Positions 281-49,900 of a stretch of 64,000 nt of DNA are shown piece by piece. The position numbers and the translations under genes are program-made. Within the stretch, counting starts at the first letter, position 1. Each line of letters starts with the position of its first letter. The stretch lies in contig NC_092678.1 of the NCBI RefSeq assembly GCF_964355755.1, positions 457,922 through 521,921 on the forward strand. Direction: 5' to 3'. The stretch comes from Antedon mediterranea (taxonomy: Eukaryota; Echinodermata; Crinoidea; Comatulida; Antedonidae). The notes beneath the pieces were generated by a model, which did no database searches, had not been told where the DNA came from, and worked only from the letters and a program-made list of their open reading frames with translations.

Positions 281-3200
281 CTAGGAAGATACAAAGACAG
301 GTAAATAGTGGTTGCTAGGAAGATACAAAGACAGGTAAATAGTGGTTCCTAGGAAGATACAAAGACAGGTAAATAGTGGTTCCTAGGAAGATACAAAGAC
401 AGGTAAATAGTGGTTCCTAGGAAGATACAAAGACAGGTAAATAGTGGTTGCTAGGAAGATACAAAGACAGGTAAATAGTGGTTGCTAGGAAGATACAAAG
501 ACAGGTAAATAGTGGTTGCTAGGAAGATACAAAGACAGGTAAATAGTGGTTGCTAGGAAGATACAAAGACAGGTAAATAGTGGTTGCTAGGAAGATACAA
601 AGACAGGTAAATAGTGGTTGCTAGGAAGATACAAAGACAGGTAAATAGTGGTTGCTAGGAAGATACAAAGACAGGTAAATAGTGGTTCCTAGGAAGATAC
701 AAAGACAGGTAAATAGTGGTTCCTAGGAAGATACAAAGACAGGTAAATAGTGGTTCCTAGGAAGATACAAAGACAGGTAAATAGTGGTTCCTAGGAAGAT
801 ACAAAGACAGGTAAATAGTGGTTCCTAGGAAGATACAAAGACAGGTAAATAGTGGTTCCTAGGAAGATACAAAGACAGGTAAATAGTGGTTCCTAGGAAG
901 ATACAAAGACAGGTAAATAGTGGTTCCTAGGAAGATACAAAGACAGGTAAATAGTGGTTCCTAGGAAGATACAAAGACAGGTAAATAGTGGTTCCTAGGA
1001 AGATACAAAGACAGGTAAATAGTGGTTGCTAGGAAGATACAAAGACAGGTAAATAGTGGTTGCTAGGAAGATACAAAGACAGGTAAATAGTGGTTGCTAG
1101 GAAGATACAAAGACAGGTAAATAGTGGTTGCTAGGAAGATACAAAGACAGGTAAATAGTGGTTCCTAGGAAGATACAAAGACAGGTAAATAGTGGTTCCT
1201 AGGAAGATACAAAGACAGGTAAATAGTGGTTCCTAGGAAGATACAAAGACAGGTAAATAGTGGTTGCTAGGAAGATACAAAGACAGGTAAATAGTGGTTG
1301 CTAGGAAGATACAAAGACAGGTAAATAGTGGTTGCTAGGAAGATACAAAGACAGGTAAATAGTGGTTGCTAGGAAGATACAAAGACAGGTAAATAGTGGT
1401 TGCTAGGAAGATACAAAGACAGGTAAATAGTGGTTGCTAGGAAGATACAAAGACAGGTAAATAGTGGTTGCTAGGAAGATACAAAGACAGGTAAATAGTG
1501 GTTCCTAGGAAGATACAAAGACAGGTAAATAGTGGTTCCTAGGAAGATACAAAGACAGGTAAATAGTGGTTCCTAGGAAGATACAAAGACAGGTAAATAG
1601 TGGTTCCTAGGAAGATACAAAGACAGGTAAATAGTGGTTCCTAGGAAGATACAAAGACAGGTAAATAGTGGTTCCTAGGAAGATACAAAGACAGGTAAAT
1701 AGTGGTTCCTAGGAAGATACAAAGACAGGTAAATAGTGGTTCCTAGGAAGATACAAAGACAGGTAAATAGTGGTTCCTAGGAAGATACAAAGACAGGTAA
1801 ATAGTGGTTCCTAGGAAGATACAAAGACAGGTAAATAGTGGTTGCTAGGAAGATACAAAGACAGGTAAATAGTGGTTGCTAGGAAGATACAAAGACAGGT
1901 AAATAGTGGTTGCTAGGAAGATACAAAGACAGGTAAATAGTGGTTGCTAGGAAGATACAAAGACAGGTAAATAGTGGTTGCTAGGAAGATACAAAGACAG
2001 GTAAATAGTGGTTCCTAGGAAGATACAAAGACAGGTAAATAGTGGTTCCTAGGAAGATACAAAGACAGGTAAATAGTGGTTCCTAGGAAGATACAAAGAC
2101 AGGTAAATAGTGGTTCCTAGGAAGATACAAAGACAGGTAAATAGTGGTTCCTAGGAAGATACAAAGACAGGTAAATAGTGGTTCCTAGGAAGATACAAAG
2201 ACAGGTAAATAGTGGTTCCTAGGAAGATACAAAGACAGGTAAATAGTGGTTCCTAGGAAGATACAAAGACAGGTAAATAGTGGTTGCTAGGAAGATACAA
2301 AGACAGGTAAATAGTGGTTGCTAGGAAGATACAAAGACAGGTAAATAGTGGTTCCTAGGAAGATACAAAGACAGGTAAATAGTGGTTCCTAGGAAGATAC
2401 AAAGACAGGTAAATAGTGGTTCCTAGGAAGATACAAAGACAGGTAAATAGTGGTTCCTAGGAAGATACAAAGACAGGTAAATAGTGGTTCCTAGGAAGAT
2501 ACAAAGACAGGTAAATAGTGGTTGCTAGGAAGATACAAAGACAGGTAAATAGTGGTTCCTAGGAAGATACAAAGACAGGTAAATAGTGGTTCCTAGGAAG
2601 ATACAAAGACAGGTAAATAGTGGTTGCTAGGAAGATACAAAGACAGGTAAATAGTGGTTCCTAGGAAGATACAAAGACAGGTAAATAGTGGTTCCTAGGA
2701 AGATACAAAGACAGGTAAATAGTGGTTGCTAGGAAGATACAAAGACAGGTAAATAGTGGTTCCTAGGAAGATACAAAGACAGGTAAATAGTGGTTGCTAG
2801 GAAGATACAAAGACAGGTAAATAGTGGTTCCTAGGAAGATACAAAGACAGGTAAATAGTGGTTCCTAGGAAGATACAAAGACAGGTAAATAGTGGTTGCT
2901 AGGAAGATACAAAGACAGGTAAATAGTGGTTCCTAGGAAGATACAAAGACAGGTAAATAGTGGTTGCTAGGAAGATACAAAGACAGGTAAATAGTGGTTC
3001 CTAGGAAGATACAAAGACAGGTAAATAGTGGTTGCTAGGAAGATACAAAGACAGGTAAATAGTGGTTCCTAGGAAGATACAAAGACAGGTAAATAGTGGT
3101 TGCTAGGAAGATACAAAGACAGGTAAATAGTGGTTCCTAGGAAGATACAAAGACAGGTAAATAGTGGTTCCTAGGAAGATACAAAGACAGGTAAATAGTG

Positions 3201-3830
3201 GTTGCTAGGAAGATACAAAGACAGGTAAATAGTGGTTCCTAGGAAGATACAAAGACAGGTAAATAGTGGTTGCTAGGAAGATACAAAGACAGGTAAATAG
3301 TGGTTCCTAGGAAGATACAAAGACAGGTAAATAGTGGTTGCTAGGAAGATACAAAGACAGGTAAATAGTGGTTCCTAGGAAGATACAAAGACAGGTAAAT
3401 AGTGGTTGCTAGGAAGATACAAAGACAGGTAAATAGTGGTTCCTAGGAAGATACAAAGACAGGTAAATAGTGGTTCCTAGGAAGATACAAAGACAGGTAA
3501 ATAGTGGTTCCTAGGAAGATACAAAGACAGGTAAATAGTGGTTCCTAGGAAGATACAAAGACAGGTAAATAGTGGTTCCTAGGAAGATACAAAGACAGGT
3601 AAATAGTGGTTGCTAGGAAGATACAAAGACAGGTAAATAGTGGTTCCTAGGAAGATACAAAGACAGGTAAATAGTGGTTCCTAGGAAGATACAAAGACAG
3701 GTAAATAGTGGTTCCTAGGAAGATACAAAGACAGGTAAATAGTGGTTCCTAGGAAGATACAAAGACAGGTAAATAGTGGTTCCTAGGAAGATACAAAGAC
3801 AGGTAAATAGTGGTTGCTAGGAAGATACAA
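281..3830. repeat. 34-bp satellite array, about 104 copies
   Basis: The unit begins CTAGGAAGATACAAAGAC and is 34 bp long. Copies are almost identical. The main variable base is the last base of each unit (G or C, in TGGTTG or TGGTTC before CTAGG). Read along the array, this base forms runs that repeat at longer periods: the block C3 G7 C10 G4 occurs twice in succession. Later a nine-unit block and then a six-unit block are each doubled. The array lies 3' of the last visible GRIP exon, so it is intronic if the gene continues off the window. No coding potential is apparent. Confidence 0.98.
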
Positions 3831-4433: not shown

Positions 4434-4565
4434 TAGATCATTTTAAGTTCAGGCTAATACTAATTAATACTTTCTGATATTTTTGGCAGCGCCATGAGCA
4501 ATGACTGTTGGAATGGCACTATATAAATCAAACGATTGATTGATTGATTAAATACTAGAAAACTA

Positions 4566-4710
4566 TATATATATTGCTTACCACTTTGAACTTTAGTATG
4601 TGGGTTGGTGAGTCTGGGTATAAACTGACTGACTGGTAATATATATATTGCTTACCACTTTGAACTTTAGTATGTGGGTAGGTGAGTCTGGGTGTAAACT
4701 GACTGACTGG
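4566..4710. repeat. 74-bp tandem duplication over the GRIP PDZ3 exon donor
   Basis: Two copies of a 74-bp unit, differing at few positions, run from the exon end (complement of TTTACACCCAGACTC) through GTAAGC into the intron. The donor at 4654-4655 is repeated at 4580-4581. Use of the downstream donor would add 74 nt and change the phase. Confidence 0.85.
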
Positions 4711-14792: not shown

Positions 14793-17700
14793 TCAATAGG
14801 TGTTTTTTAACCTCTTATTTTCCTCTCTCAGTCTCTCAATTTCACTCAACAATCCTTCATTTACTGAATAGTGTTCAAGCATCTCCTTCATTTCCATCTG
14901 AAAGACAAAATAACAAAATGATGTTAATTCAAATAAAAATACATTTTACTTGGCCTTGTTTGTTAATATATATTTCAACTGGGCGACCTCTTTAGTCAGA
15001 GACTTGTCTCCCAGAGGGCCAAGTATGATCAGTGGCTGTGTACACCATCTTTGAAGATGTACTAGGTTCTTTAAAGTGCACATGAGCCAGATGTATACAC
15101 TAGACATACGGTTTATAGTCCTTATCCAAGAAGACTCGTTCTACCACCAGAACCATGGAGAGTGGGCCTGGAATCCTTGCCAATGTTATGGCTACATAAT
15201 TACGGTTTCACTGTCTTAACAGCTCGCCAACTCTCTCACTTTACAAGTTCATAAAATGAATGTTAATAGTAACAGTGAGAAAACAATATTTATAATTAGA
15301 TGCTACAAATAAACTATTTGTTACTATAGAATTAGCAATGAAAAAATAATATAAATATACCTTGTGAATCTGAAACTGTCGGAGCATTTCCAATTGCAGG
15401 TTACGGACGTCTCGATGAATTGAATCCCTACAAAGAAAATGCCATATAAACTAAGAACAAAAAAAAATGAAATTATATAACAACACATTAGATAAATTGT
15501 TTCTGGTAAGATGATTTCTCACTATTGATCTTCACATATGTATATTCTTATCATAATCTTCTATATTGCAAGATTCTACTCATCCCATGCATAATGTATT
15601 TGAGGTGTTATGTAGCAGTAGACAAATAGGTTTCTTTCAGCAATTATCCATCTGCCATTCGGGCACTGAATGCTTGTCAGTATACCGTACAAGAGTCATG
15701 TGACACTTCACATTTTTTTTTTATATACTGTAATTATATCTGTTTTTGTTTATCTCGGAGCAAACATAATTTCTATGTATATTTTATGCAAGTGACAATA
15801 AATGGCAGTAATTTTCCACTGATGAATGAATGAATAATAATAATAAATTATATTCAAGTCAATATTTGAAAAAACCTATAAAATTCACCTAAATTCTTCT
15901 AATGAATCATCAATCATGTTTTTAATGAAGTCCACTTGAAATGTGTTCAAGCCAGCTGGAGGTTGGTTTGTAGAAAGTGCTGCTATAGAGCGTTCAGGTG
16001 CTACATCACCAGTGGGTCCACTAGAATGAGCAGAGGAAGAGGTGTAAGTTGAACTTATGGCGGGCGGAACTTGTGGATCGGCAGGTAACCTTGTTGAAAT
16101 ACCATCTGCAAGAAAACGTTATCAATTTTAAATTGAGGAGAAAAGTGTGTTAAAAATTACAGATTTAAATTACAGATGTGAAATACCAAGTGTGACTACA
16201 CTATCAACATTATGTAAAAAAAAAATATATGGACATGATGTCATATCACTACAATATTTGGGTACATCACTACCATATTTGGGCACATCACTACCATATT
16301 TGGGTACATCACTACCATATTTGGGTACATCACATTTGTTTGATAGTATAGAAAGAGCTTAAGAATGTGACTAAAGAATGTGATTACTTGGTAAAACAAA
16401 CTGGTCCTCAAACTTACTTTTTGAATCAATGTTATTAACTTTATTTGTAATTCCAGGAGGCCTACGACTTGAATCTTCCAGTCTTCCAGTGTTTTCCATC
16501 TTATTAGAGCCACTTATAACACCAGGCCTGGTAGAAGACTCTTCCGGCTTAGAGATCTCCACCCTACTTGAAGCAGCTGTCGTGCTAGGCCTATCAGATG
16601 TCTTCTCCATATGCGAGTTCTCAGCAGTACTGGGAGGATTCACCCTGAACTGTGTGGTGTCTAGATCTAATGAGCCTACAGAAGACCGGCCTGGACTTTT
16701 CCTGGCACTCCTTGGTGATAACCCTGTATTCCTACTTCTAGGACTTAACCCTGTAGGCTTTAAAGGAAAAGATTTCAATTGTTATTGACTCTTATTAGAT
16801 TTAAATCATCATCTAACGAGGGCGTGTGGCACAGTGTGTTGGACGATGGACTACCGTGAGATTGTGCGTTCGAATCCAACTCTCGTCGCATTGCTTGTAT
16901 CCTTAGGCAAGATACTTTACTTACGTTTGCCTCTCTCCACCCAGGTGTATAAATGGGTACCTGGTTAGATCAAGACACAACTTTGCGCTGATTACCAGCT
17001 GCATTATGGGAGTATGTTTCCATGTGACTGAGGTAATAATGTGCATTGTGCAATAAATGCTATAAAAATAATATTATTAACTTCAACATTGATTAATAGG
17101 TAACTTACAGTAGAAGGTCCAGATGCACCTCCACTTAATATAACATCATTTATGATTGGTTGTTTTGCCAGATATGAGGTGGGACTAAGGCTGACAGAAC
17201 CAACCGGATTGCCTCTTGTATATGGGACAGTGTCACCAAGTGGGGAAAACACACCTAGAAAAATAAAAAGTTGAATTTCATTTATTTTTTTCAGTATTAA
17301 TAAAAAATACTTCTGCCCGCAACTCAAGTTATCAATTATAGGTAGACACTTAATGTGAACAAATTAAATAATAATAATGGTAGTGTTATATAGCGCCTAA
17401 TACAATGTTTCTAATCGCTTTACACACAAAAATGATCCATAAAATATCTTAAGATACTAAAAAAAGAAGAAAAGCATTCCCACCGCTTGTCTATTGAACA
17501 AAACTAATTGGTTATATTCATTCAGTGGGATAGTTGTTGTACACTTACCTCCTAAGCTATCTGTTCTAGGTGCAGAAGCCTTTCCCAGCACTTCTGGCCT
17601 GGTGGAGAACCCATTGGATAGTGTATCCTTGCTTGGCATTGCTGTAGCTAAAGAAACAAATATGTAATAATAATAATAATGTACTACTACTTATCAATCA

Positions 17701-20700
17701 CCTTATAATAATATTTGTCTATTGCATAAAATAATCAATTGTCAGTATTCAACAAAATTACAGTTGGTTTGTCTGTCTGTCCTTACCTTCTCGAACTGGT
17801 GAGAATAAAACATCTGTACTTTGGTCCTTATTAGTGGTGTCTGGTGGCGCTTGTCGTGTTGCTGATCCATTAAGCAAGGCTTCTTTGTTTATTTGTTTAC
17901 CAGGTTTCATGCCGTTTTTTAACACACTTGTCACTTGAGGCTCACCGGCTATCAGCTTGCTTCTTGTTGAAGCAGTTGAGGGTGCTTTCACATCAGAACT
18001 ATCGCTCTTTGTATGAAAAAGAAATTTTACAAAATTAGATTAGGTTAGATCGGAGAGAAAACAAGGATTTCAAATGAGTATAAATTCATCGTTTGGATCA
18101 TACGCTAAATTAGTTCACATCGTGGAAAAACAAGAATGAGCCTATCAACTCATCTATAGAAACCCCAGACACAAATAAAGAAGAATATTAACTCATCCTT
18201 TAGATCATTTGCTAAAGTAGAACACAACTGTGGGAAGATGGGTGTGTTAAAGTGGTCAAGTAGTGGTATAGAAATCCCAAACACAAATAAACAGAATGCC
18301 ACTATATAAATGTAAAACAAATTCTAAACATAAGTGCTGGAGTACCTTATTGTTTGTAGCTTTTGAAAATGCTACGGTTTGTACGGAGGTCTTGTGCGCA
18401 CTGAGAACCTTAATTGGTAGCGCCCCCATGCGTAGGTCATACACAAGTACTTTCCCACGTGTCGTGCCTGCTGCTAGAGTCGCTCCATCTGTGGCAAACG
18501 CCATGGACGTGAGCGGTGCATCTGCTGTAAACGTCTTGATGGTACTACAGAAATTAAACAATAAAATAGTGCTACCACCTGTGTTGTCATGCAAATAACC
18601 AAGTGTGCAAAAGTAATCTGACTATTTATATGGCAATCTTAAGCTCTGTCTACACTATCAACCTTTATGTAATGTGCCCATATATGGACATGATGATGTC
18701 ATATCACTACCATATTTGGGCACACCACATTTTGTTGTCAAACTAGTTTGATAGTGTAAACAGAGCTTAAGAATCCTGCTCACCTTTTAGCCTGTACACT
18801 GTAACATACGATTCTCTTATCAAGGCCTGCGCTTGCAAGCAGCATGTCATTCACAGGTGAAAAACTGAGGGCAGTAGCAGGTGCTCTGTGGGAATCGGTA
18901 AAAGTAGCCACACACTTGCTGGCATTGGTATCCCACATGTTCAATGCACCATCATCCGATACCGATGCCAATAACGATTTCTTGAAGTACGAATAGCCAA
19001 CTTGTTGTATAGACTAAAGAAAAGAACATTAAACTATGAAACAATAAAATAAAATGTTGTGAGAAAATTCATTCATTAGTAAATAGTACAGAGCAACACA
19101 AACACCAAAAAAACCCTGCTGTAAAGAAAATATAATATGTGTGTTAAGCTCTGTCTACATTATCAAACTAGTTTGACAACAAAAGTACCCAAATATGGTA
19201 GTGATATGCCCAAAAATGATATGATATGACATCATCATGTCCATATATGGCACATCACATTTTTTGATAGTGTAGACAGAGCTATAGGCAGCTTTGGGTT
19301 AATTAATTCGGATTTCTTCAAAGAAAACAGTAAAACATACCTGTGTACCTGGTGAAACGAGAGGTTTAATGGCCACACCTGACACAACACTATGCAGGTA
19401 TATCTCACCATTGGCTGATCCAGAGGCTAGGTAAGTGTCGTTCCAGTTGAAACGAACGCAGTTGACAGTGTCTTGATGACCCTTGAAAGAAAACAACATT
19501 AAAATGTCATCAACAAAATATATTAACTGATTGTTAAAAAATAATAAATGTTTTGTCCACCTGCTGGAGCTCTTCAAAAGAATTAATGCTTTATTTTTGA
19601 TCCATTAAATTACTTTAGCAAAAGATTTAGTTTTTTTGAGATTCTTGTGTACTTTATTCAATCATTCAGAGTAATTTTGTTTAGTCATAATAATGACAAC
19701 CATAATAACGTTTAGTACAGTGATTTTTACAAAAATAAAAATTAAATAAAACATATATACAGTTATTATTTACAATAATGATAATATAATAGTGGTTAAA
19801 TTATTTTAATAAGTAACGTAGCTCTTATTCTCAATATTATAAAATCAAAAAATTAAAATAAAGGTGCATAGCATGGTATAAATGAAGATCTTGAGTACAC
19901 CATGTATAAGTATCCGCCAATGACAGCCATGTGACTTCAGAAGATGACGGCTACAAGAACAGTAGCAGTGATTATTTGAATACATCAACCTTACCCTGTA
20001 TGTTTTAATACATGAATCTTACCCTGTATGTTTTCTTCAATTTGCATGACTTTGTGTCCCATACTTGAACAAGTTGGTTCTTGCCAGCACTGGCTAGGTA
20101 TCGTGAGTTACTGTTTAATGTTACACACGTTGGTTTGGACTGAAAACAAACAAACAATGGATAGATAGATACCAAATAAGACACATTTACACTTTGAGGG
20201 CCTCATGCATGTCATCCTTGGCTGTTATTAGTCACCCTCCCCTTGGCTGTTATTAGTCACATCCTTGGCTGTTATTAGTCACCCTCCTTAAACAAAGTTT
20301 AATAAAAACGAGTTTAAACACACTATCCTACTATTATCCTACTCTAGACTAGGTTTCAGGCTGGTTTCCAGTACTGTGTTATTTTTAGAGCGGTTAACAG
20401 ATAAAACCACCTTCAGACGCAAAATATAAATACATCCTATATAGCTACACTGAGCCCGGATTCCAGTCCGGTGGCCGGAGAAAAAAATCGTAGAAAACAG
20501 GTTTAATGTTAAAGAATAGAAGCGTTCACACCGGATTTTGTACGGATTTGATCAGGTGCACAGATTTCTGTGCAATGGATCTGAGAATCCGGTTTGAGTG
20601 TGAACATAGCTTAAAAAAGCATGAATAAAAAACTTACATTTTCTGCTACTTGGATGACAGGACTCGCTTTGGTTTTAACAAAACTTAAAACCACTTTATC

Positions 20701-23876: not shown

Positions 23877-26800
23877 TCAGTGGTTTTTAAGTACAGTCTG
23901 AAGGTCCTCTGGTAGTGAATGTATAATGTTGTCAATTTGTCTTTTTAATTGGTTCAGTAATTCTGGCTTTACATGAATGTCATGATGCAATACATTGTCC
24001 TACAAAATAAAAAAATCATATTTCAGTGGAGAAAACGAAAGAAAGTTACTGGTTATCAAAAAGGTGCGTCAAAGCGTCGCCTCAAAGATGAAAACAGAAG
24101 TCTATGCCAGCACCCCAACTGTCGTATGGGGATACATTCACGTTCAATAACTAACAAAAGTGCTTACATTTGATTCTGAGAGCACAGCACATTCTGTATA
24201 AAGCTCTGTCTACACTATCAAACTAGTTTGAAAAATAAAGTGTGCCCAAATATGGTAGTGACATGCCTAAATATGGTAGTAATATGACATCACCAGCACA
24301 TTTTGTATCAAACTTACCACTCGTTCTCTTAACTTAAGTATAAGATCAACAATCTCAACTTCTCGTTTGTCTTTTATCCAATCAACAAGGTTCGCTGAGC
24401 ACACCGCTTCAAGATGGATCAGCGACAACTTCTGGTTCACTTCTTTCTGACGATGATGTAACCAACCTTCAAAATTACCCGATATGAAGAATTTCCTAAA
24501 AAAGATTGAAGAAAATAAAGCGTTTAAATCATTACACCAAATCAACTTTTCTTTAGAATCCAGAAAAGAATCAAACTTACTTGTACAATCCTTCCCAGTC
24601 ACCTTTTAATCCAGACGTCAGTTGCGGCCCAGAATGTTCTAGGGTTTTTAAAAACGCTTCAATCTCAAATTCTTTTAAACGAGGAGGACCCTAAAAAACA
24701 CACATCATTATTAATATTTAAAAATTAAATTGAAGCGATACAGAATTTACACCGCCCTCTGTAATATTTTAGGCGCATGGATGGTAAATCTTCTGAGAAT
24801 AACACATATACTCCTATTTGAAACTACATATAAAACAAAATGGTATTTTCTTTTTTTAATTTGTTATTTATTTATACTGGTTAACCTCTTCAGCCCAGTT
24901 ATGATCAGTGGCTGTGTGTAACAGTGACTGTGTGTGTATACTACTAGTGTAACCCCCTACTCATCTTGAAAGATAATAATAATAATAATAAACAATATTT
25001 ATATAGCACCTATTGGATCACTGACCCCTCTAGGTGCTTTACATTAGACCCTAACTAATGGTAATAAACTATCCCCCGCCGGACACCATTGCGGTATTTC
25101 TTAGTCGAGGTTTCGGGGATGTACAGGTTCTTTAAAGTGCACATGAGCTAGATGTGTTGATGACTTGTTTTACCACCAGAACCATGGAGCGAGTGAGCCT
25201 CAAACCCTTGCCGATGTTCTGGCTACGTAATTACAGTTACTAGAGATACTGCTTTGTACCTGGCAGACAACATATAAAACAAAATGCTAAGTTACAGATA
25301 CAGCTTACCTTCCATGGTGATACATTTCGCTGTAGGGGCATCAGACTTGCTAAGTACCGCTCAAGTGGTATCATGAAGCTCTGCGTAAGTTCTAGTAGGT
25401 GGCGTCTTAGAATCGCATCTTGTACTTCAGACGGCCTCTTGGTTTGGATACCCTGAAAAAGAAACAAATGCTATAGATTTAAGCTCTGTCTTCACTATCA
25501 AATTAGCTTGACAAAAAAGGTTTCATGTGCCCAAATATGGTATGGATATGACATCCTCATATCCATGCTGACTCTTGTAGTTACAGTAATCAGTCCCTGA
25601 CCAATTCATGTCTTTTACATTATGGTTTGTTCGTCAAATAAATTAATTGAAATATAAGGCAAATGGGACTAGACAATGTAATACTTAGTATTTTATTTAT
25701 GTTAGTTAATATAACTTGCGATTGTCTGATGAGAAATTCAATTCAATTTATTCTGGCTTTTAAAATACAAACAATAACACATACATCACACATGATAGAC
25801 CCAATTAAATTACAAATAACAAATAACCTACCTTAGCTAACTTCTTAGTAATAGTTTTGTCCTTTTGGAGGTATGGCTTGTACTGTGTGTACACACCTGA
25901 GAAAAAGACAAAATAAGGTATGGTTTACACTGCGTGTACACACCTGAGAAAAAGACAAAATAAGGTATGGTTTACACTGTGTGTACACACCTGAGAAAAA
26001 GACAAAATAAGGTATGGTTTACACTGTGTGTACACACCTGAGAAAAAGACAAAATAAGCTATGGTTTACACTGTGTGTACACACCTGAGAAAAAGACAAA
26101 ATAAGGTATGGTTTACACTGTGTATACACACCTGAGAAAAAGACAAAATAAGGTATGGTTTACACTGTGTGTACACACCTGAGAAAAAGACAAAATAAGG
26201 TATGGTTTACACTGTGTGTACACACCTGAGAAAAAGACAAAATAAGCTATGGTTTACACTGTGTGTACACACCTGAGAAAAAGACAAAATAAGGTATGGT
26301 TTACACTGTGTATACACACCTGAGAAAAAGACAAAATAAGGTATACTAAAAACAAATTCAATTTTGAGGTATATGTTACTGAACCATATTAGTACTGTAT
26401 TATGACAGCAATGGTTGTGTGAGGTATATGTTATTGAACCATATTAATACTGTATTATGAGGTCTATGTTATTGAACCATATTAGTACTGTATTATGAGG
26501 TATATGTTATTGAACCATATTAGTACTGTATTATGACAGCAATGGTTGTGCCAGACTGTGATAAATTTACCAAATAAGGCCACCTGTTACTGTATGTTAA
26601 ATAAGGCCACCTGGTCCTGTATGTTAAATAAGGCCACCTGTGAAATAGTACTGAAATGGAATACAAATAATATTGACATACCTGGTTTAGACTCTAATGT
26701 CTTCATACTACTGGTCTTCTTAGGTTTTAATACTTTAGGATTACTTTTGTCTAAAATGAAGTAAATGTTTATTTCATTCACACATACTAACAATAGTTGC

Positions 26801-29800: not shown

Positions 29801-32609
29801 CTTTAAACTTGATGCTGTCAGTTTATCTTGTACAGAAGGCATTCGTATATGTAAGACATTGCCTATGATTGGAAGGTGAAGAGTTTCTCCTGGTATAGGG
29901 GTTGGCCACTGGTCTATATCGTGACATGCTGGTGGTAAAAACATAAAAGACAGTATATTAACATATGGCCATTGGTCTATATCGTGACATGCTGGTGGTA
30001 AAAACATAAAAGAGTATATTAACATATGGCCATTGGTCTATATCGTGACATGCTGGTGGTAAAAACATAAAAGACAGTATATTAACATATTTTCAATAAT
30101 AAATAGTTAGCTGTACTAAACTGGAAGTCTATCCTAGTGTATGGTACTCATAAAAGACGTGTGCATCTTTTTTATTTATTTAATTAAACCTCATCATTTA
30201 AAGAGGGTAACCCTAAACAAACAAAAATGAAACATAAAAGAACTATATATGAAGAAAGAGAAGGGTTAGCTCAGTGTTCTAGTCTGTTGTTATTCACTGC
30301 ATCGGGCTAACGACCAATGGGACGAAAGAGTTTTACATACAGTAACATTCCAAATGGATCAAATAAATATTTAAGAACATACCTGCTTCTAATGAAGGCT
30401 CTCCATGTTCAAAATATTCTGGTGAGATTGTGTTGACCAAGTGTGAAAACAACATCACATACGGAAGCTTACTTAAAACTACTACCGACTAAAAAAACAG
30501 AAACAAAAATTAAATAATGGTTATAAATTTATTCCTTGTTTAACTGGGTTAAAAACTCAGTTGAAAATTGTTTATCCTTTTGTGGCCAGGATGGTCACAT
30601 AATCACATGGTCACATGGTCACATGGTCACATGGTCCCATGGTCACAGGGTCATATAAACATTTACGTTACATTTGATTTAGTTTTTAATTTTAAGAAAT
30701 TTATTAAATAAATTCTTACTAACTTTTTGAAAATAGCCTCTCCTTGATGTGTTGTCTTTAACTTGTCTAAAATAAACATAGCCATACAGATGGGCAGAAT
30801 CACTCTAGGAAAATAAAAAAACAAAATTATTATGAAGTATAATGATGTAAAAGGCAATGATGAAGACAATGTTAAAATTTCTGTGCGTGCGAGTGACTGA
30901 GCAGTTAAGACAGTGGAACCGTATTTAGGTAATTATAAGGGTTCAAGGCTCACTCGCTCCATGGTTCTGGTGGTAGAACAAGTCTTCTCGGATAAGGACT
31001 ATAATAAACCATAGGTCCAATATAAACATATAACTCATGTGCACTTTAAAGAACATATTACATCTTTCGAGATGAATAGGGGGTTACCTCGGTGTACTAG
31101 TACACACACAGCCACTGATCATAGGTTACCCATAAATAACAAATTCAAAACCCATTACATTACCTGTAAATGGAAAGGTCCTTTGGTATCGTACTTAGCT
31201 CTACTATGGGTAGACAACGGCCGACTCATACATCTTCTAATTCTAAAAAGAAACCTTGTATCTCCCATACAACCTATGCACATATTGAAATGTTTGATAA
31301 ATGTATATAATAAAAAAACAACAAAAAAGAGTAAAGAAATTAAGTAACTAACTCATTTAAGTTCCCCTCCTCTAAGCGGTGAACCTTAATTTCACTGTTG
31401 GTTGGAAAATAAAAATAAAGCAAAAAAATAAAACCGAAATTAATTTCTGAGAATACATTTGCTTTCACTGTAATAATTGTGCACAATTAGTTTAGATATA
31501 ATTTGTAGCACTTTAGTATACCTAGTACGGCATACATTATCAAATCTTCTATAATAGAACCATTTGTTAAAGGTTAAAGGTTAAAGGTTATACTGTCATA
31601 CACTTAAAATTACAAACATAATAATAGACACATTAAACAGCATGGACAACAACATTAATAGGTCATAGGTCATTGCAAACTAATGTACTCAACTATTAAG
31701 TAACATTTCCATTACATTCTAATAATAGCAGACATCAAAGTAGATGTTAGTAACTTGATATGTTTGTATATAAACTTTGAAGAATAGATATACAATAAAT
31801 ATTAACAACTTAGCCTATAATAATGGTATGTTTTTGACTAATTTGATAATAAATATTTTTATTTATTAAGCTCATTTTACCGTCCACATTTTTTTTTTTT
31901 TTTTTACCTGAATTTGAATCTGGAAACGACAGATAACAAATGTTCATTCGCTGAAAATAAGAAAGTTAAAATAAAATTCAAGTACATATGAATTAAGGCA
32001 AATCTAAAAAATGTTTCATTTTAAGAAATCAAAACGCTGTGTTGATTATGATTGTTGTGCGATTGCCTATGAGAAATACTATTATATTTATCTATATGCC
32101 TACTAGTGTTATTAGTTCACAAAACTAAGTTCTTACTTCTTTCTCTGTTAGCTTGACATGACTGGGATAAACAAACTAAAAAATACAAAACAAACAAAAG
32201 AAAAAAATATGTTTATTTATTATAAATTATATTATTATAGTAATAACATTACTAATAATTAATTAAATATTTTTTGTATGCTTTTTTTCATTAACACTGG
32301 ATGGAGACAGATAAATCAACAAAAACAAAGTTCACAAAAACGGTATTTTAAAACGATTGTCTGCCTAGGCCTAGTCCAATTCTAAGCATGCCATCAAATT
32401 TCAACAGCGGGGGAAACTGACTTTGCCATGTGGAATGATTACAATCGACAGCCTACCTCAAGAGCCTGGCCGAGCTCCAAATCGAATGTGACAACACATA
32501 CACAATAAAGCCAATTTGAAAAATTATCCCATGGTAAAACAGCAGACGATTTAAATGTTATTTCACTTGAATTCGTCGAGATCACACGATCTCTGTCCAT
32601 TGTAGCCAT
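23877..32609 (-). CDS. DENND6A: DENN domain-containing protein 6 (DENND6/FAM116), Rab GEF
   Basis: DENND6 proteins are DENN-type guanine nucleotide exchange factors, linked to Rab14 and recycling endosomes. Coding exons: 32457-32609, 32137-32175, 31908-31950, 31164-31273, 30724-30804, 30383-30488, 29789-29928, 28439-28555, 28095-28252, 27500-27594, 26682-26750, 25832-25896, 25309-25452, 24581-24690, 24318-24495, 23877-23999. Phases join and give 576 residues (human DENND6A about 608). Recognisable stretches in order: [160 protein letters not shown]. The start [11 protein letters not shown] begins at a good-context ATG. Human has one paralogue pair (A/B); which is closer was not tested. Exon 7 and exon 12 acceptors are embedded in tandem duplications. 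Confidence 0.96.
24200..24313. mobile_element. MITE family TTAAGCTCTGTCTACACTA, copy 5, right end truncated
   Basis: It begins AAGCTCTGTCTACACTATC and carries the family core (CCCAAATATGGTAGTGACAT). The right end stops at ATCAAACTTACC, exactly where the DENND6 exon 15 donor (complement GGTAAGTTTGAT) lies, so element-like sequence abuts the splice site. Confidence 0.75.
24890..25238 (-). mobile_element. SINE family A, copy 2, with (TAA)n insertion
   Basis: The tail side has ATGATCAGTGGCTGTGTGT and the head side has ACCACCAGAACCATGGAG and CAAACCCTTGCCGATGTT. A segment at about 24968-25110, with a TAA microsatellite and TATATAGCACC, is extra relative to copies 1, 3 and 4, and looks like a second retroelement tail inserted into this copy. 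It lies in DENND6 intron 13. Confidence 0.72.
25479..25568. mobile_element. MITE family TTAAGCTCTGTCTACACTA, copy 6, partial
   Basis: The left end TTAAGCTCTGTCTTCACT and the core TGTGCCCAAATATGG are present; the right inverted end is missing. It lies about 25 bp upstream of DENND6 exon 13. Confidence 0.8.
25891..26343. repeat. 47-bp array of DENND6 exon 12 acceptor copies (10 copies)
   Basis: On the minus strand each unit reads GTCTTTTTCTCAG then GTGTGTACACACAGTG and a copy of the exon's first codons. The lowest-coordinate copy is the real acceptor of exon 12 (25896/25897). Nine more lie upstream in the intron at exact 47-bp steps. Variants (AAGCTATGG, TGTATAC) recur 188 bp apart, showing a four-unit higher-order duplication. 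Confidence 0.95.
26367..26545. repeat. GAGGTATATGTTAYTGAACC repeat, about four copies
   Basis: Units contain ATATGTTATTGAACCATA and TAGTACTGTATTATGA, with or without a GACAGCAATGGTTGTG extension. It lies in DENND6 intron 11. Confidence 0.9.
26566..26640. repeat. 28-bp AAATAAGGCCACCTG repeat, three copies
   Basis: Three copies of AAATAAGGCCACCTGTTAC-type units about 40 bp 3' of the DENND6 exon 11 donor side. Confidence 0.88.
26866..27016. mobile_element. MITE family TTAAGCTCTGTCTACACTA, copy 7
   Basis: The left end TTAAGTTCTGTCTAAACT lacks part of the TIR (a short internal deletion). The right end is GATAGTGTAGACAAGACTTAA. It lies in DENND6 intron 10. Confidence 0.85.
27836..28069. repeat. 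11-bp TTTGTACTATA microsatellite-like array, about 21 copies
   Basis: TTTGTACTATA and TTTGTACTATG units, open in all three plus frames because the unit contains no stop. It ends about 25 bp inside the intron from the DENND6 exon 9 donor (28093-28094). Confidence 0.95.
28921..28983 (-). mobile_element. tRNA-like SINE head fragment
   Basis: On the minus strand it begins GCCCCAGTTGTG and has box B GGGTTCGAATC, and its ends GCCC/GGGC can pair. Too short and irregular for a functional tRNA. It lies in DENND6 intron 7. Confidence 0.4.
29866..30085. repeat. 61-63-bp triplication of the DENND6 exon 7 acceptor
   Basis: The segment with TATATCGTGACATGCTGG and TGGTAAAAACATAAAAGA occurs three times (acceptors at 29929, 29992 and 30053). 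The lowest-coordinate copy is continuous with the exon body. The first step is 63 bp, so the second acceptor would add 21 residues in frame; the next step of 61 bp would not keep frame. Confidence 0.9.
30596..30650. repeat. GGTCACAT decamer-like repeat
   Basis: About six copies of ATGGTCACAT in DENND6 intron 5. Confidence 0.85.
30885..31130 (+). mobile_element. SINE family A, copy 3
   Basis: The tRNA-like head has GAGTGACTGAGCAGTTAAGA then CAGTGGAACC and box B GGGTTCAAGGC. The body has CATGGTTCTGGTGGTAGAAC, TCATGTGCACTTTAAAGAAC and CAGCCACTGATC. It sits antisense about 35 bp 3' of the DENND6 exon 4 donor. Confidence 0.82.
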
Positions 32610-37921: not shown

Positions 37922-40900
37922 TCATGAAATAATGCACTTCTTCTTACGAGAAGCTTTACGACTCGGCAACGACCTCGATTGAAGAGACTTTGACCTGTGT
38001 CTAGACGATGATTCCACGTACGTGATGCGTGGCTGACGACTACGATTAGCAAAGTAATCCTCTTCGTCCTCGGAGGACGATGAACTCATGTAGTCTCCCT
38101 TGATGTAATCTTTGAGTTGTTTTTCAAACGTGTTATCTGAATACGTCTTTTTAAGTTTACGAGATGTACGTTCAGAACGGTATTGTGGCTGCTCTCTCTC
38201 GAACGGCGCACGATGTCGTGGGGGCGGTGTTTTTCCTTTCCACGAACCTCGATACTTTCCGTTTTCTGATTGTCTTCCTTTTCTTGCACTTCCATTACTC
38301 CTTTCAATTGGCCAGTTCTCTTCTAACCGCAAATCTTCTGGTCTGGAATCTTCTACCCATGTGTCTTTCCGTCTGCCATCCATTCTTTCTGGTCTGGAAT
38401 CTTCTACCCATGTGTCTTTCCGTCTGCCATCCATTCTATGATCTTGTCTTTGAGGCGCCGTCTGTCTGTCCTCTGATCTTCTCTTATCGTACAACCTCTC
38501 ATCTGGTCTTCTACCATTCCTCATATACACATCCTCTTGTCTCCTTCTGTCCATCTTTCGATCACCATCAGTCGATGATGGTGGCATCGGCATATCTCCA
38601 GGATGGCCTGATGGATGCCAACCACCGTTCTGATCATGTGGTGAGGTGATCCTCTGTTCTTGTGAGCTAGGATATCCCGGTGGTCTATCATCTCTTTTCC
38701 ATTCCTTTAGCGGTGGTCTGGCACCACCTACAGTATTCGTTGCGGTCCTCATTTCATTATTGTTCCTTCTTAGTTCGTAATTCTTTGGTTGACTAAATCT
38801 TGCGGACCATGGGTCAGGTTTTGTGGAAGGTTTGCCTCCAAGACTTTGCGACGAACCACTGCGTCTTCGATCGGATGCCGACAAATGTCTGTTATCATCC
38901 TCTCTCCTTCTGTCTGCAGGACCAAAACTACTTCTCCGTCGCTCGTCTTCTTTGGAAGATTTTCTGAGATCTGGTAAAGACGTTCTGGAAAGTCTACTAG
39001 AGTTTTGAATAGTTCTTTTTGTCATTTCGTCATCAGTTGCCGGAATTATCTGATCTAAAATCACGTCATTAACATTAATGGGTTTGCGACTACGACTAGT
39101 TTGTAAATCTTGTGTCTTACTCTCGTGATCTGACTGAGTCCCGCTCTTTTTTAAAATCTCTCCACGACTACAAGAACTGCTACAATAAATTAGTCCATGT
39201 TTTGGCAGAAAAGGACGTCCAAGTAAAGTCACACCACACGTGTAACATTTAAAACATTTCTCCGTCGCATGCCAATGTTGACCTTCGTGTGACATTTGAC
39301 CCTGGTCAACACCGACAGGTTCTCCACACGTGTCGCAATATTCAGAGAACATTGATTCAAAACAATCGCAGCAATACGGCCGTCCTTCACGCATGATGTA
39401 TCGTTCTCCGCCAAGTTTCTTGTCGCATTCAAAGCAACAGAAGTGCTTCATATGCCAACTTCTCCCCTCTGCTTCAGTACATTCCTCAGCAAAAATTATC
39501 TATTGATAAAAAATAAAGACATTTTTTTTCAAATATTTGCATATTATTGTTCTGCTTAGACAATGCAATATACTACTGTATATGGCAGAGTATAACCCCA
39601 GTATAGTCTATTGATAAAAATAAAGATATTAAATGGTTACATGTATTCTTGGCAGGCAATGTAATCTTTATTATAAGAGAGAGAGAGGGGAAGAGGTTTT
39701 TACGTTTGTTTGTTATACAAATTTTCCTACTGCGCACATCCTTACACATAGTTGGGGGTAATAAGGAATAAAATTACCAAAATTGTACTGGAGATCCTTG
39801 CTGTTATACAGTACAATATTATTGTTTTACCAGTTGTTCAGATAAACTAAATAAACAATTAAGCTGCAAGGAAGTTCATAAATAAACTTTACACCTCTAG
39901 ATGACCCCATCCAGTCAAGATGACCCCATCCAGTCTAGATGATTCCATCCATCTTACCCCAGTTGTAATATAAATATACAAGTGTATACTTACTTCATCA
40001 CAAGCACAGCACCTTGGTTTGAGTGATTCTGAGTGATGCCTACCACAGTACAGCTTACCATCCCGGTAGAAATAGATCAGATCCACTAGCAGTTCAGTAC
40101 ACACACAGCATATGAAACATGCCGGATGCCAACATGCGTTGTGCCCGGCACGGGACGCAAACACCGCGATCTCACCACCATGAATACCGCCACCACACTG
40201 TGAAAACAAAAAGATTGGCATTCAAGAAGTTGTCTGGTTGTGTTTTCGCTTTTATTTATGATTGGATTATGATGAAATGAGAAAACCATTTAATATTGTT
40301 TTGCATAGAATTAAATAAAATTAATGTTGACATTTTATTGAAAGTTATTAATAAAATGGCATATTATTTTTATTATATCTATTTTATTTTATTTTATTCA
40401 ATCAAAACCAACAGCGATAAATACCGCCACTATTTAATTAATTAATTAATATATTTTTTTTCATTTATTGAAAGTTAATAGGAAAATGGCATACATTATT
40501 ATTGGTAAAATCATTGTAAGAATCAAAATTATAATCAACATCATCATAATCATGACATCATCATCATCATTATACAGTAGTATTATTCTAGTTCATGATT
40601 GATCATATCATCATATGATATCTAATACTGTTATTTTCACTACATTACTTATAGCTCACTATAAACGAATATGAAATTTGAATTTGATACTGAAATTATA
40701 GAGCATGGTTGTAAGATGATATCGTTCAAGTAAGTATCTTAAGAATAAGAGCCGAGCGGTTCTGTTAAAATTAGCATACAGGTGTCAAAACTAATTCATG
40801 AGATTGTATTTTATTTATATCGGTCAATTTAGTGCTGGAAAAAAAGATTAACAATATTGTGACTGTACGGTATAAAAAATAAGTTTATTAAGCAATGATT

Positions 40901-43900: not shown

Positions 43901-46900
43901 GAAGAATGTACAGATAGAATTATTGATTCGCTCTAGTGTACTGTATTACTGTATAATGTTATCATAATAGATGTATTCCGTACTTTCTTTCAAACTTTGA
44001 GCTTTACAGATCAAAATGATTTGAAATTAAGTTTAACCAAAGCCACGGCTGATAACATATCATTTGATAACCCTAAACATGGCTGGTATAAAGCACCACA
44101 CAAACTATCTTGCTTGGAAAATAAATCAATATTTGGGTTGGAAATCGTGACAGATATAGATCCCCAATTTGTTCGTTTGAAGTACCGGTACTCTGTTATT
44201 GAAAACAAATATTTAACGATCTGGATGGAATAAAAGGTAATTCTGTTAGCGTTACTCTAGTTGTTTGCACTAGTTTGTTTAAATTCTTTAGTTGTGGTTG
44301 TTTTTATCTCAAATTAATAAAATGTTAGCTGTGTCTGAATTTCAGACAGTACTGTAATGATAATACATTTATAATCTCAAAACACTATATTATACTATAG
44401 ATAGTAGTCATTAAAAAGAACATGAAAATATTTGACCATTCCTTGTGGGCCTGATGTAGTACCAGGGATTATATTCAGCTGGACTATTGGTCAGATTTTA
44501 CATAGCGGTCATAGCCTGCAGACCTGTACTAATTGAACATTATATTATTTATTTGTATTTATTTTGGAGACAAGTCTCCCGGAGAGGCTAGTAGCAACAT
44601 AGCTGTTAAGGCTAGTAGGTAATTTTGCGGCCTCTCCCTTAACTAATCGTAATTTACAACAAAAAAGTTGGAAAAAAAAGGTTGCTTTTAAATGATGCAA
44701 ATGTTTGTGAATCAACAACAGATTGAGGCAACTGTTACTGTCCCTTTAAGATGTTCACCTTATGGGTATACATCCTTTGTACACTCTATGAAAACAATGT
44801 TCTTAATTACATCCCATACTGTGAGGAGACTCCAACTAAATTAGTTAAAGTGTGACTCCTGGCTCTATCAAAAACAATATCCATTGGTTGTTCACCCTTC
44901 TGTGTCATGTGACTCCTGGCTCTATCAAAAACAATATCCATTGGTTGTTCACCCTTCTGTGTCTTGTAAATTATTATAAGTAGAACAATTTATACTCAAT
45001 ATTATTGCAAGCAGTGGCGGATCAAGGATTTTGAAATGAGGGAGCGAGGGTCTAAAACTGGTGAAATAAAGAGCTGAACTTAATCTAATGTCCTATTTTT
45101 TGCATCTTTTCAATTTAGTGGGTGCCCAGGCTGCAAGGATATACTGTAATTATTCTGGGTAGACTCCACCAACTCTACAGCTTATTTATATTTCCGCATT
45201 CTGTACTGGCAGCACCCACATATAGAAAGGTACTGTACAGTACATGACGTTTTATTTTGTTCCCATCCATTCTTAATTTGATTATAACGTCATGAGGAAA
45301 TTTCCCAAATGATCGAAATCAAAAACGGTACTGGGGACTCAACCAACTATATTTAAGGTATTGTATATTTCCACATACAGTACCTGTATAGTACTGTACT
45401 GGCAGTGGCACCCACCTAAAGGAAGGTACAGTACCTGAAGTACTGTTTCATTTTTGTCCCATCCATCCCACATCAAGACTATTTTAGCGACATTACTGAG
45501 CATGAAACCATGTCAAAGTAAATCAATTATTCATTTTATTCACGTTTTAAGAACAAAATGCCAATCTCATCTATCACAATATTGGCTTTAAAAACCTGAT
45601 TAAAGATGATATGTAATAACGAGTTAAGGAACAGTTTGAATCCTATAATAATTACTTTATTAGAAAGTGAGACAGTTTGGCGGGAGGAAGTGTAAACATG
45701 CTAGTATTCTAATAGGATTGTATATGATTGAATAATCTATGAATAAACACTGATGAAAAACCTCTAAACTATATAAGGTACTGTAGTAGTCACTGACTTG
45801 ACAGAATGGAACATAAATGGGAAGGGGGTTGTAATGAAGGAAGGCTTATGATCTGGTATTGCATTGCGAGTGGCCAAGTGGTTAAGACAGTGGAACCGTC
45901 CAGTGTACACACTGCTCGTGTGCACTTTCAGTATGTCTGCTTGTTGAAGACAATGAGAATTCAAACAGAATATTAGCCCCATGTTCTATCGTCCTCCTCC
46001 CTCCCTAAAATCCTTAGTGATGTTCTTATACAATACAATATACATGAAATGGAAATTGAAAAATTGATTGATTGGTTCCAGGGGTAATAAATAATAAATA
46101 TACATTAAAATATACAAAATTGACCATTCATACTTTGATCACACATTACTGGTCATTGAGTGACCATTCATACTTTGATCACACATTACTGGTCATTGAG
46201 TGACCATTCATACTTTGATCACACATTACTGGTGGTCATTGAGTGCCACCATTCATACTTTGATCACACATTACTGGTCATTGAGTGCCCATTCATACTT
46301 TGATCACACATTACTGGTCATTGAGTGACCATTCATACTTTGATCACACATTACTGGTCATTGAGTGACCATTCATACTTTGATCACACATTACTGGTCA
46401 TTGAGTGCCCATTCATACTTTGATCACACATTACTGGTCATTGAGTGCCCATTCATACTTTGATCACACATTACTGGTCATTGAGTGACCATTCATACTT
46501 TGATCACACATTACTGGTCATTGAGTGCCACCATTCATACTTTGATCACACATTACTGGTCATTGAGTGCCCATTCATACTTTGATCACACATTACTGGT
46601 CATTGAGTGCCACCATTCATACTTTGATCACACATTACTGGTCATTGAGTGCCCATTCATACTTTGATCACACATTACTGGTCATTGAGTGCCCATTCAT
46701 ACTTTGATCACACATTACTGGTCATTGAGTGACCATTCATACTTTGATCACACATTACTGGTCATTGAGTGCCCATTCATACTTTGATCACACATTACTG
46801 GTCATTGAGTGCCCATTCATACTTTGATCACACATTACTGGTCATTGAGTGACCATTCATACTTTGATCACACATTACTGGTCATTGAGTGACCATTCAT

Positions 46901-49900
46901 ACTTTGATCACACATTACTGGTCATTGAGTGCCCATTCATACTTTGATCACACATTACTGGTCATTGAGTGCCACCATTCATACTTTGATCACACATTAC
47001 TGGTCATTAAGTGCCACCATTCATACTTTGATCACACATTACTGGTCATTGAGTGACCATTCATACTTTGATCACACATTACTGGTCATTGAGTGACCAT
47101 TCATACTTTGATCACACATTACTGGTCATTGAGTGACCATTCATACTTTGATCACACATTACTGGTCATTGAGTGCCCATTCATACTTTGATCAAACATT
47201 ACTGGTCATTGAGTGCCACCATTCATATTTTGATCACACATTACTGGTCATTGAGTGCCACCATTCATACTTTGATCACACATTACTGGTCATTAAGTGC
47301 CACCATTCATACTTTGATCACACATTACTGGTCATTGAGTGCCACCATTCATACTTTGATCACACATTACTGGTCATTGAGTGCCACCATTCATACTTTG
47401 ATCACACATTACTGGTCATTGAGTGCCACCATTCATACTTTGATCACACATTACTGGTCATTGAGTGCCACCATTCATACTTTGATCACACATTACTGGT
47501 CATTGAGTGCCCATTCATACTTTGATCACACATTACTGGTCATTGAGTGACCATTCATACTTTGATCACACATTACTGGTCATTGAGTGCCCTAATGGCT
47601 GACACATTACTGGTGGTCATTGAGTGCCACCATTCATACTTTGATCACACATTACTGGTCATTGAGTGCCCATTCATACTTTGATCACACATTACTGGTC
47701 ATTGAGTGCCACCATTCATACTTTGATCACACATTACTGGTCATTGAGTGCCACCATTCATATTTTGATCACACATTACTGGTCATTGAGTGCCACCATT
47801 CATACTTTGATCACACATTACTGGTCATTGAGTGCCCATTCATACTTTGATCACACATTACTGGTCATTAAGTGCCCATTCATACTTTGATCACACATTA
47901 CTGGTCATTGAGTGCCACCATTCATATTTTGATCACACATTACTGGTCATTGAGTGCCACCATTCATACTTTGATCACACATTACTGGTCATTAAGTGCC
48001 ACCATTCATACTTTGATCACACATTACTGGTCATTGAGTGCCACCATTCATACTTTGATCACACATTACTGGTCATTGAGTGCCACCATTCATACTTTGA
48101 TCACACATTACTGGTCATTGAGTGCCACCATTCATACTTTGATCACACATTACTGGTCATTGAGTGCCACCATTCATACTTTGATCACACATTACTGGTC
48201 ATTGAGTGCCCATTCATACTTTGATCACACATTACTGGTCATTGAGTGCCACCATTCATACTTTGATCACACATTACTGGTCATTGAGTGCCCATTCATA
48301 CTTTGATCACACATTACTGGTCATTGAGTGCCACCATTCATACTTTGATCACACATTACTGGTCATTAAGTGCCACCATTCATACTTTGATCACACATTA
48401 CTGGTCATTGAGTGCCACCATTCATACTTTGATCACACATTACTGGTCATTGAGTGCCACCATTCATACTTTGATCACACATTACTGGTCATTGAGTGCC
48501 ACCATTCATACTTTGATCACACATTACTGGTCATTGAGTGCCACCATTCATACTTTGATCACACATTACTGGTCATTGAGTGCCACCATTCATACTTTGA
48601 TCACACATTACTGGTCATTGAGTGCCCTAATGGCTGACACATTACTGGTCATTGAGTGCCCTAATGGCTGACACATTACTGGTCATTGAGTGCCCTAATG
48701 GCTGACAGGGAAAAACTGTCTAATGACCTATTTTTTTTGGTAGATATAGATTTATAGTGTTTATTTTATTACTTGTTAATATACCAGATTTACCAATAAC
48801 TGTAACTTAAGGATGAACTTACCTGCTCAGCTTTGAGTCCAGGTGGCAGCCAGGTGTACTCCTCCAGGACACAGCCACTGTCATCATCAGATGCTGACCC
48901 TCGTTGAAAGTCCTGAATCATCCGACTGACCGTTCTCTCTTGGTCATTAGCCATCACACGGTGATCTTCTCGTGGACATTTACAATGAAGGCATATTTTC
49001 CTGGAAAGACACAAACAAAATACACTGTATGAAACCAATTGTTTGGTGTATAGTACATATATTTACTGTGTACACTAAAGTACAATAGTTAACACTAAGT
49101 GCTTCACAAAATATTTTCCTCACTGTATGGTAGGTTAATTCCAGTGATTCACAAGTAAAAACTGGAGCTAAATTTACAGTATATTTTAAAAAGCATAAAG
49201 AATAAAATGCATTCCCTTGTATACTAACAATTAAAATAATGCTGAAATCTATAAATAAGCTACCATGTCACCAAGAAGTAAAGTCAACCATGTCACCAAG
49301 AGGTAAAGTCAACCATGTCACCAAGAGGTAAAGTCAACCATGTCACCAAGAGGTAAAGTCAACCATGTCACCAAGAGGTAAAGTCAACCATGTCACCAAG
49401 AGGTAAAGTCAACCATGTCACCAAGAGGTAAAGTCAACCATGTCACCAAGAGGTAAAGTCAACCATGTCACCAAGAGGTAAAGTCAACCATGTCACCAAG
49501 AGGTAAAGTCAACCATGTCACCAAGAGGTAAAGTCAACCATGTCACCAAGAGGTAAAGTCAACCATGTCACCAAGAGGTAAAGTCAACCATGTCACCAAG
49601 AGGTAAAGTCAACCATGTCACCAAGAGGTAAAGTCAACCATGTCACCAAGAGGTAAAGTCAACCATGTCACCAAGAGGTAAAGTCAACCATGTCACCAAG
49701 AGGTAAAGTCAACCATGTCACCAAGAGGTAAAGTCAACCATGTCACCAAGAGGTAAAGTCAACCATGTCACCAAGAGGTAAAGTCAACCATGTCACCAAG
49801 AGGTAAAGTCAACCATGTCACCAAGAGGTAAAGTCAACCATGTCACCAAGAGGTAAAGTCAACCATGTCACCAAGAGGTAAAGTCAACCATGTCACCAAG

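Follow-up and report, generated by a model that had tools for sequence, protein, structure and literature searches.

The DENND6 gene and the array over one of its splice acceptors

The window, by which we mean the whole stretch of 64,000 nucleotides analyzed here, carries on its minus strand a gene that the initial annotation had assigned to DENND6. The assignment was upheld: the modeled exons, which leave out the N-terminal exons, contained the Pfam SPA domain (PF08616) at 25.5 bits against a cut-off of 22, and the name itself is one we assume from the resemblance of the exon peptides to DENND6. When the C-terminal exons were searched alone, no Pfam family exceeded the cut-off, and a search of the PDB returned no match. 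The DENND6-like gene was found to be single-copy, as all seven of the seven protein matches in the 354-Mb assembly fell within the host gene. At the locus of interest, an exon ending in ...LESKPG (26682-26750, minus strand) is followed in the transcript by a phase 1 intron of 785 nt (25897-26681, minus strand; donor CCAG|GTATGT at 26681) and then by a 65-nt exon encoding 21 residues (25832-25896, minus strand; exon 12 in the earlier numbering), whose own donor is AAG|GTAGGT at 25831. The phase is 1 at the junction of this exon with the one ending at 26682 and 0 at its downstream end. The boundary at 25896, previously named as the point on which the reading of the locus would turn, is required by the DENND6 reading frame, with phase 1 on either side of the junction.

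Across this boundary, a 47-bp tandem array of acceptor cassettes was identified by Tandem Repeats Finder (25869-26344, minus strand; ten copies plus 6 bp; period 47, 10.1 copies, 97% match, score 896), and it was encountered only once in the 354-Mb assembly. Each unit consists of the last 25 nt of the intron, with the polypyrimidine tract, the AG and a putative branch point, and 22 nt of exon-derived sequence; the sole yTnAy match per unit is CTTAT, located 18 nt from the AG. The array therefore carries ten TTTTTCTCAG acceptors spaced exactly 47 nt apart on the minus strand, and the ten-fold tandem amplification described by the initial annotation was borne out. The real acceptor AG (25897-25898, minus strand; context CCTTATTTTGTCTTTTTCTCAG|GTGTG; first exon base 25896) is the last of the ten and adjoins the exon, and it received the top score among the acceptors modeled in the window. 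The nine decoy AGs claimed earlier do precede it in the transcript (25944-26321, minus strand), each at 47-nt spacing and followed by GTGTGT, with the first base after the AG at 25943, 25990, 26037, 26084, 26131, 26178, 26225, 26272 and 26319. All nine were identical to the real acceptor across the tract and the AG, and the 25 nt before the exon agreed in all ten copies apart from one position upstream of the tract, where two units carry a C/G change. The nine extra units account for 423 nt of the intron.

Growth of the array and the repeat context of the window

We examined the units for traces of their history by sequence self-comparison. A four-unit block (25944-26131, minus strand) was identical to a second copy of itself (26132-26319, minus strand), such that units 1-4, numbered from the 5' end, equaled units 5-8, both diagnostic variants included. 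These variants, TATACAC and ATAGC, each recur exactly 188 bp apart, from which the initial annotation had deduced growth by four units; this deduction is supported because the longest exact self-match measured 220 bp at the four-unit shift versus 49-78 bp at the other shifts. With regard to copy-number variation, the block attests to past growth only. The motif ATACCT was present at both edges of the array, ten unit lengths apart, with the intron-side copy (26339-26344, minus strand) preceding the tract and the exon-side copy (25869-25874, minus strand) lying within the exon. Because this 6-bp microhomology delimits the duplicated segment, an origin by slippage or microhomology-mediated duplication is suggested. 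Three exonic sites set the real copy apart from all nine other copies (AGTACAAGCC versus AGTGTAAACC), and therefore the decoys appear to derive from one diverged copy, the edge copy having been kept apart. This pattern points to homogenization of the inner copies and not of the real copy at the edge.

The array had been treated as a singular case, which proved incorrect: four arrays in the window, this one included, span an exon boundary, and the class is known from amphioxus. The second lies over another DENND6 acceptor (29903-30090, minus strand; Tandem Repeats Finder and exon model) and comprises three copies of 61-63 bp, with the real first base at 29928 and decoys at 29991 and 30052. Its acceptors read AG|CA and not AG|GT, and a dual AG|GT as a prerequisite for such arrays was thus not supported. 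Use of the decoy at 30052 would lead to a stop; the nearest decoy, at 29991, would add 63 nt in frame and 21 residues without a stop, and an isoform with a 21-residue insertion is therefore possible. The remaining two, also found by Tandem Repeats Finder, span donors: a 28-bp unit in 2.1 copies in the NEDD1-like gene (19975-20034, minus strand), where ACAGGGTAAG occurs twice at 28-bp spacing, and a 74-bp duplication of an exon end and its donor in the GRIP-like PDZ gene (4565-4710, minus strand), where TTCAAAGTG|GTAAGC is repeated. A further candidate, the 49-bp array at 55614-55958 with TACTAAC...AACAG|GTAGGT, was set aside because inspection of its flanks by eye revealed no coding exon.

To place these arrays in proportion, the number spanning a boundary was compared with random placement over 54 exon boundaries between 4.4 and 42.2 kb, taken from models of the GRIP-like, NEDD1-like, DENND6, AMT-like and PRICKLE-like genes; some of these junctions, chiefly those of the AMT-like and NEDD1-like genes, were placed by a simple scoring script and are no more than its top guess. 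Four of the 20 arrays in this interval spanned a boundary versus 2.8 expected (P(>=4) = 0.30), and targeting of repeats to splice sites is therefore unnecessary, as random placement accounts for the count seen. Tandem repeats made up 19.4% of the bases in the window versus 5.2% in 205 kb sampled elsewhere, and one end of the 26-Mb contig that holds the window is approximately 0.5 Mb away. No boundary-spanning array was found in 126 WD40 segments from 30 loci; the nearest candidates there (L029, L033 and L034) were read and lay outside the boundary. A high genome-wide rate was accordingly not supported, and judged by this sample such arrays are not common everywhere in the genome. The boundary arrays give the impression of an active minisatellite process that met exon boundaries by chance and did not target them.

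Several other repeats were observed. Large and highly uniform minisatellites occupy 281-3830 (34 bp x 104), 46123-48707 (42 bp x 61), 49262-49979 (25 bp x 29) and 50816-52191 (60 bp x 23), the last of which is open for more than 320 codons on both strands. A coding exon of the PRICKLE-like gene (38336-38437, minus strand) contains an exact 51-bp (17-codon) tandem duplication. It was also noted that units of a 21-bp type (ATCACTACCATATTTGGGTAC) form short arrays at 16245-16333 and at L010, L022 and L030, in introns of unrelated loci, and these units probably constitute a dispersed minisatellite family.

Strength of the decoy sites and predicted outcome of their use

We assessed the strength of these sites with one simple weight matrix set applied to all modeled introns, whose values are generic and not species-trained, such that the ranking alone is reliable. 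The real acceptor scored 10.0, the maximum among the introns modeled in the window; its tract and AG recur in the decoys. The initial annotation had considered the decoys as acceptors alone; they are acceptors, but this description is incomplete, since every copy continues as CAG|GTGTGT, and GTGTGT makes each of them a full-strength donor-like site as well. As a donor, GTGTGT scored 6.3, whereas the native donor of the upstream exon reached 6.2 and that of the 65-nt exon 6.0, and the ten copies of the array were the ten best donor-like sites of the region. Each unit is thus a 47-nt GT...AG segment and at once a dual-specific site. Splicing of the upstream exon onto a decoy would recreate, at the new junction, a donor equal in strength to the original one, and the product could therefore be re-spliced.

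Such sites raise the question of a recursive-splicing ladder, in which the decoy acceptors are used and the AG|GT restores a donor each time, such that stepwise removal of the intron converges on the same mRNA. Apart from the pairing of the strongest acceptor with a donor at least equal to the native ones, this is favored by the next AG|GT lying 47 nt downstream, comparable to Drosophila ratchet points, in which acceptor and donor adjoin as AG|GT with a cryptic exon of about 50 nt, recursion depends on this pair and a strong regenerated donor, and such a donor favors skipping (PMC8605326). It is also favored by human AGGT sites, which serve as both donor and acceptor 3.1-fold above expectation (PMC10809524). 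Those used in both directions show enrichment among genes with tandem repeats, UBC being an example (PMC10809524). However, recursion is typical of long introns and the host intron measures only 785 nt, the AG|CA acceptors of the other DENND6 array indicate that dual sites are dispensable for such arrays, and exon-junction complexes are thought to suppress regenerated splice sites (PMC8605326). We therefore regard the recursive ladder as unlikely. A stricter form, in which nine ratchet points would be self-correcting, with entry at any AG|GTGTGT followed by re-splicing until the exon is reached and with copy-number growth invisible in the mRNA, is in our estimate quite unlikely. If it were true, AG|GT boundaries would be the class of splice junction free to expand.

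The outcome of decoy use was then predicted by joining the upstream exon in silico to each of the ten acceptors and translating onward. With the real acceptor, the frame remained open to the C-terminus (...LQTVLKNH). With nine of nine decoys, translation ran into a stop within the extended exon, at a distance of 8 to 418 nt from the junction that follows, and further exon junctions lie downstream. It had been stated earlier that use of a decoy generally shifts the frame; most decoys do so, but the statement was too weak, as the in-frame decoys, with extensions of 141, 282 and 423 nt, also reach a stop. Because the stops precede later exon junctions, decoy products that escape re-splicing are expected, by the established rule, to be substrates of nonsense-mediated decay (NMD).

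These uniform stops would suit a regulatory role as a poison exon, in which the level of DENND6 is tuned through the number of copies, this number determining what fraction of transcripts is spliced to a decoy and targeted by NMD. However, a stop is a likely result of frame loss in any case, and comparable arrays in amphioxus have been reported without aberrant mRNA (PMC3087553, PMC3902484), making such regulation very unlikely. That the copy number is an assembly or haplotype artifact is hardly credible: tandem arrays are often mis-assembled, as seemed to be the case for one amphioxus array, BflGb6, in the draft genome (PMC3087553), but 476 bp is short relative to long reads, the assembly is chromosome-scale, and the units bear distinct variants.

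Comparison with amphioxus mirages and related systems

The closest known kind appears to be the "mirages" of amphioxus, which are minisatellite-like duplications over intron-exon boundaries (PMC3087553). The BflGb6 mirage unit comprises the 3' end of an intron and the 5' part of an exon, with six and three units on two haplotypes, inner units homogenized and the edge unit excluded, and RT-PCR suggests undisturbed splicing (PMC3087553). PGBD5, Adh and TnC carry arrays of the same type, and accurate splicing was reported for them as well (PMC3902484). As in the amphioxus mirages (Adh3, TnC, BflGb6/BflGb9 and PGBD5), the DENND6 array has minisatellite-sized units in tandem (47 bp x 10.1, 97% match) that straddle a genuine intron-exon boundary, with frame and phase fitting at 25896, and AG/GT splice signals are retained in its nine decoys. 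The two are further alike in that the inner units are homogenized and the edge unit escapes, as seen in the three exonic differences of the real copy. They differ in that the DENND6 array has ten near-identical copies of 47 bp whereas BflGb6 has 3-6 repeat units of 150-160 bp, and in that the mirages have a cephalochordate host and reportedly normal splicing, while the DENND6 array lies in an apparently ambulacrarian genome and its normal splicing is a prediction. With respect to novelty, the array is a further instance of an already described class.

Other systems resemble it in part. In intron gain by tandem duplication of an AGGT segment (the Rogers model; fish, potato RdRp), the units are likewise potential GT...AG introns, but the DENND6 array lengthens a pre-existing intron that keeps both original exon ends, and no new intron at a formerly exonic position is evident. 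The dual-specific arrays of human UBC and VCX3A similarly contain tandem repeats with AGGT usable as donor or acceptor; however, the UBC repeats are coding ubiquitin monomers, whereas the DENND6 units are intronic, 47 nt long and give stops. Recursive splice sites share with the array a strong polypyrimidine tract, a CAG|GT and a regenerated donor matching the native one, but the DENND6 intron is short and has nine putative sites in series 47 nt apart.

In view of the exact 47-nt periodicity with microhomology at both edges, the identical four-unit block, the unhomogenized edge copy, the stops behind all nine decoys and the chance-level number of boundary arrays, we consider it likely that the DENND6 array represents a mirage minisatellite overlying a 3' splice site, mostly neutral and tolerated since the terminal acceptor is normally chosen. 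We infer the following course for its origin and its neutrality. A 47-bp segment lying by chance across the DENND6 3' splice site and bounded by the 6-bp ATACCT repeat would have been duplicated in tandem and would have grown to ten copies by unequal exchange or slippage, one four-unit duplication included. The terminal acceptor would normally be selected because it alone adjoins the whole exon and its donor 65 nt away, which is the most likely basis for the persistence of the array. Occasional decoy use may be harmless because the product would either enter NMD or be re-spliced from the donor regenerated by CAG|GTGTGT. The gene is single-copy and its frame is intact across the junction, and therefore some correct splicing is required if the gene is functional. 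Against the mirage reading, the ten sites share tract and AG and, as far as the sequence indicates, no mark near the AG sets the last one apart; most transcripts would be poisoned if the 5'-most acceptor were favored; and the 30 WD40 loci (126 segments) contained no such array.

The standing of the host genome bears on how far the class extends. The single Hox cluster of the assembly (L069-L081, contig C2, 7.79-8.21 Mb) contains 12 Hox-type homeoboxes and an Evx-like one within 0.41 Mb, including three posterior genes of 11/13 type, the middle one inverted. We take this gene set to be ambulacrarian, and the genome to be unlike that of amphioxus. The matches to all gene families searched were confined to eleven contigs, a number that would be in keeping with a crinoid. 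As the cluster looks ambulacrarian, the DENND6 array would extend mirages beyond cephalochordates. Its ten 3' splice sites, nearly identical to one another and distinguished chiefly by the sequence that follows them, amount to a natural experiment on acceptor choice, in which proximity to the donor, exon definition and recursive re-splicing could be addressed. Mirages are apparently extended from amphioxus to another deuterostome group, and this spread suggests that they arise incidentally in minisatellite-rich genomes and are not peculiar to cephalochordates.
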